A DNA stretch of 64,000 bases from assembly GCF_012295525.1 (NCBI RefSeq), contig NZ_CP051167.1, positions 4,695,501 through 4,759,500 on the forward strand. Direction: 5' to 3'. Position numbers and translations under genes: made by a program. Origin of the DNA: Oxynema aestuarii AP17 (GTDB lineage Bacteria > Cyanobacteriota > Cyanobacteriia > Cyanobacteriales > Laspinemataceae). Positions 508 to 64,000 of the stretch are shown piece after piece (the stretch's first letter is position 1; the number at the start of each line of letters is the position of its first letter). The notes under the pieces are model-generated. The model searched no databases and was not told where the DNA came from. It saw only the letters and a program-made list of their open reading frames with translations.

Positions 508-1236
508 ATATTAACTAATGGAGAGTTCGGGGGGCGATCGCTCCCGCGCTCTAACCGAAAGGTCAGCGTCGGGATGCTTCGACCAGCTCGGCAACAACAT
601 CGACCCCCCTTGAAAAGTCGATTCCCCTCAATGGGGATGAGACCAGCAACCCGTCCTTTAGCTATAGCCTGTGGTAAACTCTCGCCATGCTAACGATGAA
701 CTACACCTACCGAATCCATCCAAACGCCACCGGGCAGACCGAACTGTTGGAGGGGATGGAGAGGTGCCGAGGGGTATATCACTACGCCTTGGGCGAACTC
801 AAAGACTGGATAGCTGCGCGTCACTGTCCGGCAGACCGATATTCGTTGGAAAAGGAATCTGGCGGAATGGGTGCGATCGCAATGGGGAGTCTCCTTTGCT
901 AAGGACGATCCCAACGGCACTCGCCCAAGCTGCCCTAACGGCTTTGCTATTGTGAGCAAAGGGTTGGATGTCAGAGAGCATCATTGCCCTGAGTGTGGGG
1001 ATCGAATCGATCGCGATCCGCCTCCGGCGTCGCTACGCGATCGTGCTACAGCAGAGATAGTTTTGCATTGCGGACTCGAACCAGTCAGTAGCCAGGGACT
1101 CTGGCGAAAGGAAACCGCCTGTCAAGTCGGTCTGTCGGGGGTCTATGACCTAGACAAGTGGCGTGGGGCAGGAATACCCAATCGTGAGGTTGGGAAACCC
1201 GCGCCGTACCCAGTGTAGGCGTCGGGAAGATGTCAC
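508..1236 (+). mobile_element. Internally deleted IS200/IS605-type tnpB element
   Basis: Both ends match the two longer tnpB elements in this window. The left end has TTAACT then GTTCGGGG (from about 525) and a GGGGATGAGACCAGCA-like box before the tnpB start. The right end has TACCCAATCGTGAGGTTGGG and closes with GTCGGGAAGATGTCAC at 1236. The middle of tnpB is missing, so the element is about 730 bp instead of about 1,485 bp. No tnpA is present. The right end stops 91 bp before the fbp start codon, so the remnant probably replaced or displaced part of the fbp upstream region. Confidence 0.75.
687..1218 (+). pseudogene. tnpB remnant, centre deleted and frameshifted
   Basis: The first part (687 to about 865) encodes an N-terminus like the other copies (MLTMNYTYRIHPN, then VYHYALGELKDWIAARHC). 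The reading frame then changes at about 865-870. The second part (about 866-1218) encodes the end of TnpB: SFAKDDPNGTRPSCPN, the zinc-ribbon pair HHCPEC and the tail CQVGLSGVYDLDKWRGAG. The RuvC block with the first two catalytic acids is gone. The zinc ribbon has lost one cysteine of the first pair (SCPN instead of CPNC), and a short insertion (PPASLR) interrupts the last RuvC segment. It cannot make a working nuclease. Compared with the long copies, the deletion removes roughly 280 residues, and the junction lies at a shared GAATGGGTG. Confidence 0.85.
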
Positions 1237-29938: not shown

Positions 29939-30097
29939 ATACAGCACTCGGGCGTCTTATGAGGTACAGTACCGATCCCCCTATCCCCCCAACCCCCCTT
30001 TCAAAGGGGGGCGAAGGGGGGATTGCGGAAAGTCCCCCTTTTTAAGGGGGATTTAGGGGGATCTAAATGTCTTGCATAGCAGAGGAAAATGCTATAG
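29939..30097 (-). repeat. MITE-like C/G-run repeat, copy 1
   Basis: About 155 bp bounded by ATACAGCA (29939) and TGCTATAG (30097). Inside are two foldable modules: ATCCCCCCAACCCCCC... with its GGGGGG partner (about 29983-30024), and AGTCCCCC...GGGGGATTTAGGGGG (30031-30062). Copies with the same end boxes are at 33501 and 52741. It lies between an acyltransferase gene and a glycosyltransferase gene and codes for nothing. Confidence 0.8.
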
Positions 30098-33953: not shown

Positions 33954-34110
33954 GTGACATCCTCCCGACACTGAATCAAAGATTACAGCGCGGGCTTCCC
34001 AACCTCGCGATTGGGTATTCCTGCCCCGCGCCACTTATCTAGGTCATAGACCCCCGACAGACCGACTTGACAGGCGGTTTCCGTTCCCCAGAGTCCCTGG
34101 GTTACTACGT
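33954..34110 (-). ncRNA. Putative omega RNA (right-end guide RNA) of tnpB element 2
   Basis: In IS200/IS605 elements the 3' part of tnpB plus the right end is transcribed as a scaffold whose guide begins exactly at the element border. Here the right end is strongly conserved between three copies: ACCCAATCGCGAGGTTGGG forms a hairpin, and GTGTCGGGAGGATGTCAC closes it at 33954. The first bases beyond, on the minus strand, are ATTCGTTAGAATAGGG. The 5' limit given is arbitrary. Confidence 0.35.
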
Positions 34111-35258
34111 TTTCTAGTCCACGATCCAAAACCATCTCTGCTGCGGCACGATCGCGATGCGTTCGATACCCACACTCAGGACAATGATGCTCTCTGACTT
34201 CCAACCCTTTGCTCACCGTAGCAAGGCAGTTGGGGCAGGTTTGACTGGTGCCGTTGGGATTGACTTTGGCAAAGTAGACTCCTCGCTTCCAACACACCCA
34301 TTCCGTCAGAGACAAGAACTGCCCGAAAGCAGCATCAACACAATCTTTTCGCAGCATTCCTCGCGTCAAGCTTTTGACGTTGAGATCTTCTGCAAAGATA
34401 GTTTGCGCCCGGTCGCAAAGCTGATGAGCCGTCTTCAGATGGAAATCTTTACGACGATTGGCAATGCGATGGTGCATTCTAGCCACTTCGATTTGTGCTT
34501 TCTCCCAGTTTTGAGAACCCTTCTGTTTTCGTGCTGCTCTGCGTTGCAGCAATTTCAGCTTGCGTTGCATCGACTTGAAAAACTTAGGGCGTTCTTGGAA
34601 AGAGCCATCGGAAGCGGTCAAGAATCGCTGCAATCCCAGGTCAATCCCAATCGCCCGACCGTGAACCGGAGCATCGGGAACCGATATATCCGATTCAATC
34701 GTGACGACAACATACCATTGTGTACCCCGTACCCTCGACAATACCCTTACCTGTATCCCCCCAACCCCCCTTTGAAAGGGGGGCGAAGGGGCGATGCAGG
34801 TTGATGGGCACTTCCCCAATTTTTGGCAGCTTGATTGTGAAGCCATTGATGGGATTGTTCTTGAATTGGGGAAACACAAAGGATTTGAATTGACCGAACT
34901 TTTTGAAACGTGGAAACCCATGTCCCCGTTGCAAAAATGCTTCCCAGGTATCGTGCAGTCTGCGAATCGTGGTCTGCAACACCTGAGAATGTACCTTACC
35001 CAGATGCGGGAATTGCTTCTTTGCTTTGGGCAGGTTGTTCTGCTGACGATGGTAGGACGGGAATGGCTCATCAGCAGGAATGATGTATTCCTTCTCCAGC
35101 GAGCATCGGTCTACCGAACACTTACGAGAAGCAATCCAGTCTTTGAGTTCGCGCAAAGCGTAGTTATATACGCCTGTGCACGTCTCAAGCCACGACCGCA
35201 GTTCAGTCTGCTGTACGACATTTGGATAGATTCGGTAGGTGTAGTTCACGGTCAGCAT
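33983..35258 (-). pseudogene. tnpB: tnpB split by a C/G-run repeat module (RNA-guided nuclease family)
   Basis: The N-terminal part (35258 to about 34795) encodes MLTVNYTYRIYPN... with the helical region NLPKAKKQFPHLGKVHSQVL and ends in KLPKIGEVPIN. The C-terminal part (about 34755 to 33983) encodes VRVLSRVRGTQWYVVVTIES, IGIDLGLQRFLTASDG (first RuvC Asp), IFAEDLNVKSLTRG (Glu), the zinc ribbon CPNC...CPEC, and THRDRAAAEMVL (third Asp). Both parts look intact, but a module of about 40 bp (34755-34795, with six-C and six-G runs) separates them and shifts the frame by one. The same split is present in copy 3. Without frameshifting no full protein forms; slippage on the six-base runs could restore it. 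Confidence 0.8.
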
Positions 35259-35460
35259 GACTATAATTTACTACAGACTATAGCTGCTGATAAATGCTGG
35301 TCTCATCCCCATCGTAGGGCTTAGTCCTTCCCGTAGGGTGGGGAATCGACTGTTCGAGAGGAGTCCATGGATCCGGACGCTGATGCTTCGCATACAGCGC
35401 GGGACTTATAGCTCCCCGAACCCCTCAAAAGTTAAAAATATCCATTCAGGAGCAACAAAC

Positions 35461-51253: not shown

Positions 51254-51410
51254 GTGACATCCTCCCGACGCTGAATCAAAGATTACAGCGCGGGCTTCCC
51301 AACCTCACAATTGGGTATTCGGGCCCCACGCCACTTATCTAGGTCATAGACCCCCGACAGACCGACTTGACAGGCGGTTTCCGTTCCCCAGAGTCCCTGG
51401 GATACTACAT
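51254..51410 (-). ncRNA. Putative omega RNA of tnpB element 3
   Basis: Same right-end scaffold as copy 2 (GGTTGGGAAGCCCGCGC and the closing GTCGGGAGGATGTCAC at 51254) with a few changes, including CCCAATTGTGAGGTTGGG in the hairpin. The first bases beyond the border on the minus strand are GATTGATTGCAATACT, unlike those of copy 2. The 5' limit is arbitrary. Confidence 0.35.
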
Positions 51411-52558
51411 TCTCTAGTCCACGATCCAAAACCATCTCTGCTGCGGCACGGTCACGATGCGTTCGATACCCACACTCAGGACAATGATGCTCTCTGACTT
51501 CCAACCCTTTGCTGACCGTAGCAAGGCAGTTGGGGCAGGTTTGACTGGTGCCGTTGGGGTTGACTTTAGCAAAGTAGACTCCTCGCTTCCAGCAAACCCA
51601 TTCCGTCAGAGACAGGAATTGTCCGAAGGCAGCATCTACACAATCTTTTCGCAACATCCCTCGCGTCAAGCCTTTGACGTTGAGATCTTCTGCAAAGATA
51701 GTTTGCGCCCGGTCGCAAAGCTGATGAGCCGTTTTCAGATGGAAATCTTTACGACGATTGGCAATGCGATGGTGCATTCTAGCCACTTCGATTTGCGCCT
51801 TCTCCCAATTTTGAGAACCCTTCTGTTTTCGTGCCGCTCTGCGTTGCAGCAATTTCAGCTTGCGTTGCATCGACTTGAAAAACTGGGGCCGCTCTTGGAA
51901 AGAGCCATCGGAAGCGGTCAAGAATCGCTCCAATCCCAAATCAATCCCAATCGCCCGACCGTGAACCGGAGCATCGGGAACCGATACGCTCGACTCAATC
52001 GTGATGACGACATACCATTGTGTACCCCGTACCCTGGACAGTACCCTTACCTGTATCCCCCCAACCCCCCTTTGAAAGGGGGGCGAAGGGGGGATGCAGC
52101 TTGGTAGGTACTTCCCCAATCTTTGGCAATTTGATTGTGAAGCCATTGATGGGATTGTTCTTGAACTGGGGAAACACAAAGGATTTGAATTGACCGAACT
52201 TTTTGAAACGCGGGAATCCATGTCCCCGCTTCTGAAATGCTTCCCAGGTATCGTGCAGTCTGCGAATTGTGGTCTGCAACACCTGAGAATGTACCTGACC
52301 CAGATGCGGGAATTGCTTCTTCGCTTTGGGCAGGTTGTTCTGCTGACGATGGTAGGACGGAAATGGTTCATCGGCAGGAATGATGTATTCCTTTTCCAGC
52401 GAGCATCGGTCTACCTGACACTTACGCGAAGCAATCCAATCCTTGAGTTCGCGCAAAGCGTAGTTATATACGCCTGTGCACGTCTCAAGCCACGACCGCA
52501 GTTCAGTCTGCTGCAAGGCATCTGGATAGATTCGGTAGGTGTAGTTCATGGTCAGCAT
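51283..52558 (-). pseudogene. tnpB: tnpB split by a C/G-run repeat module, second copy
   Basis: The N-terminal part runs from 52558 (MLTMNYTYRIYPD) to about 52095 and ends KLPKIGEVPTKL. The C-terminal part, from about 52055 to 51283, has IGIDLGLERFLTASDG, IFAEDLNVKGLTRG, CPNC...CPEC and THRDRAAAEMVL, so all three RuvC acids and the zinc ribbon are kept. The module at 52055-52095 has the same length as in copy 2 and gives the same one-base shift. Small amino-acid differences from copy 2 (for example ARIPNCEV against AGIPNREV) are scattered and mostly mild. Confidence 0.8.
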
Positions 52559-52740
52559 AGCCGGAGTTTACCACAGGCTATAGCTGCTGATAAATGCTGG
52601 TCTCATCTCCATCGTAGGGCTTGGCCCTTCCCGCAGGGTGGGGATGAGACCAGCTCGGGGAGTCCATGGATCCCGACGCTGATGCTTCGCATACAGCGCG
52701 GGACTTATAGCTCCCCGAACCCCTCAAAAGTTAAAAATCT

Positions 52741-62276: not shown

Positions 62277-64000
62277 TTATCGCTGTTTCCACCATAAAAG
62301 TGCGGCAGCGCTAAAGCCGATAAGCGGTAGAATTGCGATCGCCATCCATGCTAACAATCGTGCTTGTGCGGGCTGCATTTCAATCCGGCGCCGCGTTGCT
62401 TCTTTCGGTCGGATGGAAAGGGTTTCTTCATTTTGTTTGCTCAACCAATTCACGGAGTTGAGAAAAACATCGCCGTTGAGTTGCAGTTCAAAGCGCCCAT
62501 CTGCTGCAAATTCGGAATTCCCAATCACGACCATTCGCGCCTGTTTATCCAAATCTGGTGTTTGTTCGGCAGTTTCTTCTTCAGCTTCTGGAGATTCAGT
62601 TACTTCTGGAGATTCCGTTGCTTCTGGAGATTCAGTTACTTCTGTTTCTTCTTCAGCTTCTGGAGATTCCGTTGCTTCTGGAGATTCAGTTACTTCTGGA
62701 GATTCAGTTACTTCTGGAGATTCAGTTGCTTCTGGAGATTCAGTTGTTTCTGGAGATTCCGTTACTTCTGGAGATTCAGTTGCTTCTGTTTCTTCTTCAG
62801 CTTCTGGAGATTCAGTTGCTTCTGGAGGGGTAGGTAATTGAGAATCGGCAGCTTCGTCTACGGTACGAGTGAGGGCGACACCCAAAGTTAACGGTCCTCT
62901 TCGATCGCGTTCCGGGTCGAATTGTAGTTGTTGCTGTTCGGGATTGGTTTCGGCCCAACTTTCTTGGGCACTAATTAATAAAGGAGTTTGTTCGACGCCT
63001 TCGACTTCTTCGAGTTGTAAAGGACGGGCTAAGGGATAAAAAGAATAGCCATTACTGAAGTCTCGAACAATGGGATGATTGCCGTAGTTGGAGATAAGCG
63101 GAATCGCCGGACCGAGACCGACTAAACGCCCGCTACCGGACGCATCGATGGCTAAGGCGTCGTCGAGTTGGACGCCCCATTCTTCTAGAAGGTTACCGAG
63201 TTGGGGGTTCGTTTCGGGGTCGATCAGCAGTAAGAGACTACCGCCGCGATTGAGATAGGCTTTTAATGCCTCAATTTCGCCTTCAAATAGAGGTTGTTTG
63301 GGACCGGCGGCGACGATGACGGAAGCATTTTCGGGAATTTCGGTGCGTTCGGCGAGGTTAAGGGGTTCGGTGACGAAATTGCTTTCTTCTAAGGCTTGGA
63401 CGGCTTCGGACATCGACCCGGGGGATCCGGCTTCGAGGGGGCGTTCGCCGTGACCTTGGAGGAAGTAAACGGTGTAGGTACGATCGCTGATGAACTGCTC
63501 TAAAGTGCTGGTTAGTTTAGCTTCAGTCAGTCGCGATTGGGGATTAATTTGTTGTACGAATTGACGTTTTTCGCCATTGCGGGAATTGAGATACACTTCC
63601 CCAAAGCTTTTGACTTCAAACTGTTGGGCTAAAGAGATTTGTTGTTCCGGATCGATATAGCGAAAATCAAATTGTTGAGGGGCTTGTTGCTGATAGTTTT
63701 GTAGGAGTTCGAGATCGCTGGGATTGGGGGCGCGATCGAAAATGGTGACGGTGACGGGTTGGGGTAAATTCTTGACGATTTGCTGCGATTGGGGAGACAG
63801 AGTAAAACGCTGGCTTTCGGTGAGGTCCAATCTGACGGGATTGCGCAAGGCGATGCTGTTGAGCAATCCTAAAACGACTAGGATCGATAGGGTGGAGATC
63901 GCCGCGTTGGTGCCGACTTCGGTGGATCGCTTGTTCCAAAACCCCTCGGCAAACATCAGCGCCAGCAACAACCAGACGATAAAGACGGCAATCCCACCGA
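62277..64000 (-). CDS. GldG-like ABC transporter auxiliary protein (partial)
   Basis: The 5' end lies outside the window: the frame stays open to 64000 with membrane-like residues (GGIAVFIVWLLLALMFAEGF), so the ORF start near 63971 is not the real start. After the N-terminal membrane spans comes the GldG/ABC_transp_aux domain: VRLDLTESQRFTLSPQSQQI, VYFLQGHGERPLEAGSPGSM, SLLLLIDPETNPQLGNLLEE. A tandem Ala/Thr-Glu-Ser-Pro-Glu repeat follows (listed separately), then FAADGRFELQLNGDVFLNSV and a C-terminal membrane span. The family works with an ABC ATPase and permease, originally linked to gliding in Bacteroidetes. The ATPase and permease would lie to the right, outside the window. Confidence 0.85.
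   Translation of the reverse strand, partial: GGIAVFIVWLLLALMFAEGFWNKRSTEVGTNAAISTLSILVVLGLLNSIALRNPVRLDLTESQRFTLSPQSQQIVKNLPQPVTVTIFDRAPNPSDLELLQNYQQQAPQQFDFRYIDPEQQISLAQQFEVKSFGEVYLNSRNGEKRQFVQQINPQSRLTEAKLTSTLEQFISDRTYTVYFLQGHGERPLEAGSPGSMSEAVQALEESNFVTEPLNLAERTEIPENASVIVAAGPKQPLFEGEIEALKAYLNRGGSLLLLIDPETNPQLGNLLEEWGVQLDDALAIDASGSGRLVGLGPAIPLISNYGNHPIVRDFSNGYSFYPLARPLQLEEVEGVEQTPLLISAQESWAETNPEQQQLQFDPERDRRGPLTLGVALTRTVDEAADSQLPTPPEATESPEAEEETEATESPEVTESPETTESPEATESPEVTESPEVTESPEATESPEAEEETEVTESPEATESPEVTESPEAEEETAEQTPDLDKQARMVVIGNSEFAADGRFELQLNGDVFLNSVNWLSKQNEETLSIRPKEATRRRIEMQPAQARLLAWMAIAILPLIGFSAAALLWWKQR
62581..62825 (-). repeat. 18-bp tandem repeat coding for SPEATE/SPEVTE units
   Basis: An array of 18-base units, about eleven copies with two EAEEETE interruptions, inside the gldG-like gene. 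It encodes repeated E-S-P-E-A/V-T units and probably forms a flexible acidic linker between the periplasmic domain and the final membrane span. Such arrays change length easily without shifting frame. Confidence 0.85.

Follow-up and report, generated by a model that had tools for sequence, protein, structure and literature searches.

A frame-disrupting hairpin repeat in tnpB of Oxynema aestuarii AP17 probably spread among transposon copies by gene conversion and transposition in trans

Two tnpB genes in the window, the 64,000-nt stretch of the Oxynema aestuarii AP17 genome analyzed here, are interrupted at the same codon by a palindrome with runs of six C and six G, and the remainder of each gene lies one base out of frame. 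This arrangement raises the question of whether the hairpin is a device by which slippage restores some full-length TnpB at a low, self-limiting dose, as the original prediction suggested, or belongs to a dead copy spread in trans, which the same prediction regarded as the plainer reading. The features of the window that bear on this question are the following:

33954-35433, reverse strand: TnpB-only transposable element copy A, with right end ..GGATGTCAC and left end AACTTTTGAGGGGTTCGGGG..
33983-35258, reverse strand: tnpB gene of copy A (1276 nt), shifted to frame +1 past the hairpin unit
34695-35258, reverse strand: open frame of 187 aa in the 5' part of copy A, with a helix-turn-helix domain
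33983-34753, reverse strand: 3' part of copy A, not in the frame of the start codon, with the zinc-ribbon domain and the RuvC domain (OrfB_IS605)
34755-34795, reverse strand: 41-nt hairpin unit of copy A, in the place of 31 nt present in intact copies
51254-52732, reverse strand: TnpB-only element copy B, same as copy A
51283-52558, reverse strand: tnpB copy B, 1276 nt, with a frame change identical to that of copy A
52055-52095, reverse strand: 41-nt hairpin unit of copy B
29983-30023, forward strand: 41-nt unit matching those of tnpB copies A and B, within an intergenic MITE-like repeat
687-1208, forward strand: internally deleted relative of the element, with query positions 173-948 gone, 78-80% identity and no hairpin region

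The hairpin module predicted at the same position of both window genes was confirmed as a pair of near-identical 41-nt units (34755-34795 and 52055-52095), and its proposed identity with part of the MITE-like repeat was borne out by the match at 29983-30023. Both genes measure 1276 nt compared with 1266 nt in intact copies, and this net change of +10 nt places the 3' part of tnpB one base out of frame, in agreement with the frame change expected for both. The module had also been placed just before the RuvC block; it does occupy the segment preceding RuvC-I, but not as a clean insertion, as 31 bp of the gene are replaced. The RuvC and zinc-ribbon regions are kept in the split gene as anticipated, with Pfam OrfB_IS605 and zinc-ribbon domains recognized in the 3' part and a Pfam helix-turn-helix domain in the 5' part. 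When left and right ends were compared, the element ends were found to be common to most copies, with unrelated sequence outside them. Elsewhere in the window, an array of imperfect 18-bp tandem repeats (62549-62863) lies inside a long open frame (62277-63971, reverse strand).

By domain test, the family to which both window copies belong (family 1) is an IS200/IS605-type TnpB of the IS1341 group. The OrfB_IS605 RuvC, TNB zinc-ribbon and N-terminal HTH domains of the intact copy L020 all scored above the Pfam cut-off, the family-1 protein is homologous to ISDra2 TnpB (8bf8, E 3.7e-31), and hairpin sites were placed on the protein through alignment to solved TnpBs. The typical tnpB domains, the defined left and right ends and the lack of any tnpA seen with these ends are features in common with IS1341-type (TnpB-only) IS200/IS605 elements and with non-autonomous derivatives of these; no match to the element ends was found at the TnpA loci examined. 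In contrast to such elements, most copies here carry a frame-disrupting hairpin allele and are near linkage equilibrium.

The two affected copies of the original prediction are both real, but their number in the genome is far larger. A family-1 census of the 6.36-Mb single-contig genome, represented by one assembly, recovered 22 full-length tnpB copies plus fragments, the others being 91-94% identical to the window copy, and the unit is present in 18 of the 22. Seventeen copies have the hairpin at the same codon together with the +1 frame change, a 40-nt segment standing where intact copies have 30 nt (41 and 31 nt, respectively, when the outer AT dinucleotides are counted). The remaining hairpin copy, L011, bears a symmetric form of 42 nt, which leaves the frame unchanged but contains an in-frame TGA. 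Copies L013, L016, L020 and L022 are intact, encode 420-421 aa and are without the unit; they are 1266 nt long, except for one of 1263 nt. No run-length change that would restore the frame was found among the 18 family-1 hairpin copies, and few copies have extra defects: L012 and L018 contain stops, and L021 a stop together with a 2-nt deletion. The otherwise differing copies L011, L012, L017 and L021 have in common an in-frame insert of 24 nt (TPSASLR and one more residue), which immediately follows the THRD motif near RuvC-III. Homologues are almost all cyanobacterial, and the unit was absent from the family-1 site in the compared homologues that span it (79-88% DNA identity; Gloeomargaritales, Nostoc, Okeania, Moorena, Geitlerinema and others).

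The unit is a small dispersed repeat with more than 100 near-identical copies in the genome. Its form is that of a 41-bp palindrome, AT-C6-..-C6-TTTNAAA-G6-..-G6-AT, which was matched five times in the window at up to three mismatches versus 0.00 expected by chance (shuffles gave none), and 118 times genome-wide at up to two mismatches versus 0 for a reversed control pattern. A number of the matches lie outside tnpB in MITE-like, non-coding-looking contexts, and given this abundance outside genes the C and G runs were not built for tnpB. In its common form, with flanks, the unit folds into a strong RNA hairpin (-42.1 kcal/mol, z -4.7). Few genomes of the order, 8 of 148, contain an exact match. 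Cyanobacteria reportedly possess very small mobile repeats (Elhai et al. 2008, as cited in PMC4390886), and the unit may be akin to these in being a very small dispersed repeat, a lead taken from the title of that paper. The Rickettsia palindromic elements (RPE) are repeats of 105-146 bp fused in frame (PMC2229807). The unit is like these and similar MITE fusions in being a short palindromic dispersed repeat in protein-coding genes that is also found outside genes and, in several tnpB lineages of this genome, in frame (the RuvC-II lineages, L379 and two full-length family-2 copies described below). It differs from RPE in measuring 41 bp, in replacing host bases, in disrupting the frame of the majority of copies in two families (in family 1 with +1, or with the TGA of L011), and in residing in multicopy transposons among whose copies it seems to spread.

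Analysis of variation among the 22 copies revealed that family-1 copies are mosaics near linkage equilibrium beyond about 40-80 bp. All four gametes were observed for 61% of the informative SNP pairs, and the mean r2 between SNPs, 0.38 for pairs no more than 5 bp apart, had dropped to the 1/(n-1) background of about 0.05 beyond about 40-80 bp; this decay with distance indicates recombination and not recurrent mutation, and a similar decay was observed in two other tnpB families. The highest r2 between hairpin status and any SNP was 0.27, intact copies match hairpin copies exactly over 23-56 bp to the left of the site and 45-114 bp to its right, and hairpin and intact copies are intermixed in the trees of both gene parts. 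As hairpin status is almost unlinked to flanking SNPs, the hairpin allele appears to move by short-tract recombination. A simple clonal origin from one dead copy was ruled out, there being no hairpin-copy clade and no linkage left.

The reading that we consider likely is that of a frame-disrupting repeat insertion in tnpB which spread via conversion and transposition in trans. In an ancestral copy, a 41-bp palindromic unit would have replaced 31 bp of tnpB and shifted the remaining sequence by one base, and recombination over short tracts (gene conversion) would then have carried the hairpin allele from one resident copy to another. Hairpin copies may also have been moved by TnpA in trans, since TnpB is unneeded for transposition in studied relatives, being dispensable for that of IS608 and ISDra2 (PMC9956272). 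The dead allele spread in trans of the original prediction is the best fit, amended in that the unit apparently also spreads by short-tract recombination between resident copies; the data fit either transposition of hairpin-bearing copies or conversion after insertion. Hairpin copies would produce no or very little full-length TnpB, yet they keep their ends and the conserved 3' region; they may act as non-autonomous elements, and their guide RNA could load into the TnpB of an intact copy. The majority of copies are probably defective passengers that rely on a few intact copies, and not a self-limiting switch. A repeat of like kind has entered several other tnpB lineages of the genome as well, in some of them in frame. 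These patterns suggest that a small palindromic repeat may behave as an allele sweeping a transposon family within one genome, against a coding gene, and that recombination between copies is frequent enough to erase linkage over tens of bp.

Whether selection may still act on the split genes, as had been proposed, received a mixed answer from the singletons in hairpin copies. The 5' part contained 16 nonsynonymous (N) and 20 synonymous (S) singletons and one stop (neutral expectation 23.2, 11.8 and 2.0), the 3' part 23, 20 and two (neutral expectation 29.8, 12.9 and 2.25). Synonymous changes account for 40 of the 82 singletons versus a neutral expectation of 24.7 (p=4e-4), an excess that counts against full neutrality of the hairpin copies, while stops are at the neutral rate (3 of 82 versus 4.3 expected). 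Rare or private alleles had an N:S of 47:45 (stops counted as N) versus 19:62 for common alleles (p=3e-4), the latter with the look of constraint, and fixed differences to L099 were 10:32; since polymorphism in general has a higher N:S than divergence, these contrasts of rare, common and fixed changes are supportive only. The private changes of hairpin copies thus look relaxed, though short of full neutrality, and residual selection is possible. Part of the constraint signal may also stem from conversion carrying old constrained variants. Substitution types were also compared between the two parts, and no difference between 5' and 3' parts was observed (p=0.51). Fourfold diversity in the last 41 codons was low (0.075 versus 0.170, p=0.009), which fits a putative omega-RNA embedded in this region. 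The family-1 singletons are also asymmetric between strands, with 36 changes of G to A versus 18 of C to T on the coding strand.

The genome contains about 120 TnpB domain matches, and with tnpB this abundant, two or more independent hits of the repeat in tnpB are about what is expected from its genome share. All 20 long copies of family 2 carry the unit in the linker preceding RuvC-I, where it takes the place of 19 nt seen in the relative L222; L221 is also without it. One protein position hit in both large TnpB families was ruled out, as the family-2 site lies about 25 codons farther 3'. Copies with a G6 run are +1 out of frame at the unit, while the four with a G5 run are in frame, two of them at full length (L164 with 381 aa and L160 with 363 aa), and L174 is in frame via a symmetric arm. 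Family 2 (L160-L179) has additional defects that recur among its copies: the heptamer GTGAAAA is expanded next to RuvC-II, and a 4-nt deletion (CTCT) is shuffled between copies. The G5/G6 run-length difference is real, but as a difference between DNA copies of family 2 only.

A DNA-level contingency switch, in which tnpB copies are toggled by G/C runs that slip during replication or by a reshaped hairpin arm, would accommodate the G5 and G6 copies, the full-length genes L160 and L164 with the unit inside and the symmetric arm of L174. We consider such a switch unlikely, as no variant of this kind exists among the 18 family-1 hairpin copies, the shuffled deletion and heptamer expansions occur in family 2 as well, and the G5/G6 change could run in either direction, one event spread by conversion being sufficient. 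The full-length and broken genes of the G5/G6 pair make the need of transposon copies for their own TnpB directly testable.

A hairpin variant with 19 genome copies is located, in 18 of them in frame, at one codon directly past the RuvC-II glutamate, between VVE and IGMV, and reads SPLTPLNKGGTKGG. It was found in four tnpB lineages (family 3, L364, L369 and L399), of which family 3, L364 and L369 have about 68-73% mutual DNA identity; it is missing from L376, a sibling of L364 (92%), and from relatives, L338 among them. Loci of the genome with a C6/G6 hairpin at the RuvC-II glutamate comprise L320-L336, L364, L369 and L381-L399, while L379 contains another hairpin, in frame and farther upstream. 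Clustering near RuvC is not put forward as significant, the separate positions being few and central (about codons 135, 156, 180 and 273). Family 3 was dropped as a hairpin-free control on account of its in-frame hairpin; its polymorphic N:S of 56:51 (one stop) exceeds the 14:34 of fixed differences to L338 (p=0.009). TldR proteins are nuclease-dead TnpB-like repressors, and the RuvC-II lineages may resemble them in an impaired nuclease centre, with RNA and DNA binding possibly retained; unlike in TldR, the catalytic residues are kept here and the change is a repeat insertion. The hairpin insertions supply naturally occurring TnpB variants whose inserts lie at known positions close to the catalytic centre. 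That hairpins beside RuvC motifs were favoured for disarming the TnpB nuclease (reversibly where run length matters) and limiting self-cutting, with guide RNAs kept and the disarmed allele spread by gene conversion, seems quite unlikely to us.

Dose control by slippage on the C6/G6 runs would involve either the ribosome, shifting +1 at CCC-C or CCC-U, or RNA polymerase, and would yield a low level of full-length TnpB. The sequences of family 1 and of the G6 copies of family 2 both require a +1 shift and both contain an in-frame CCC CCC U, and proline sites of the CCC-C type are +1-prone when tRNA modification is lacking (PMC4519876). In addition, the very stable hairpin overlaps the C/G runs, and most hairpin copies have few further defects. 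Of the features of programmed frameshifting, family 1 has +1-compatible proline runs; its selection signal is mixed. Opposed to this mechanism are the possible supply of TnpB from the four intact copies, the relaxed appearance of private hairpin-copy variation with stops at the neutral rate, and the abundance of the unit outside genes, by which its runs were not made for tnpB. With a single frame change in 17 of 18 hairpin copies, L011 having a TGA instead, and with no run change that restores the frame, the proposed dose control found no support in family 1, and we judge it very unlikely.

An assembly or polishing artefact, in which consensus mixing of repeat copies created the mosaic pattern, is the least likely of the alternatives: a single assembly with repeats of 93% identity is prone to mis-polishing, but mis-polishing should keep read-length haplotypes whereas linkage is lost within about 40-80 bp, less than the usual sequencing read, copies without the unit were called distinctly, and the unit is present in many independent contexts. 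In another genus, two Geitlerinema homologues (L100 and L149) have an in-frame insert (ERADAEPSSASFESS) toward the C-terminus of the homologous tnpB.
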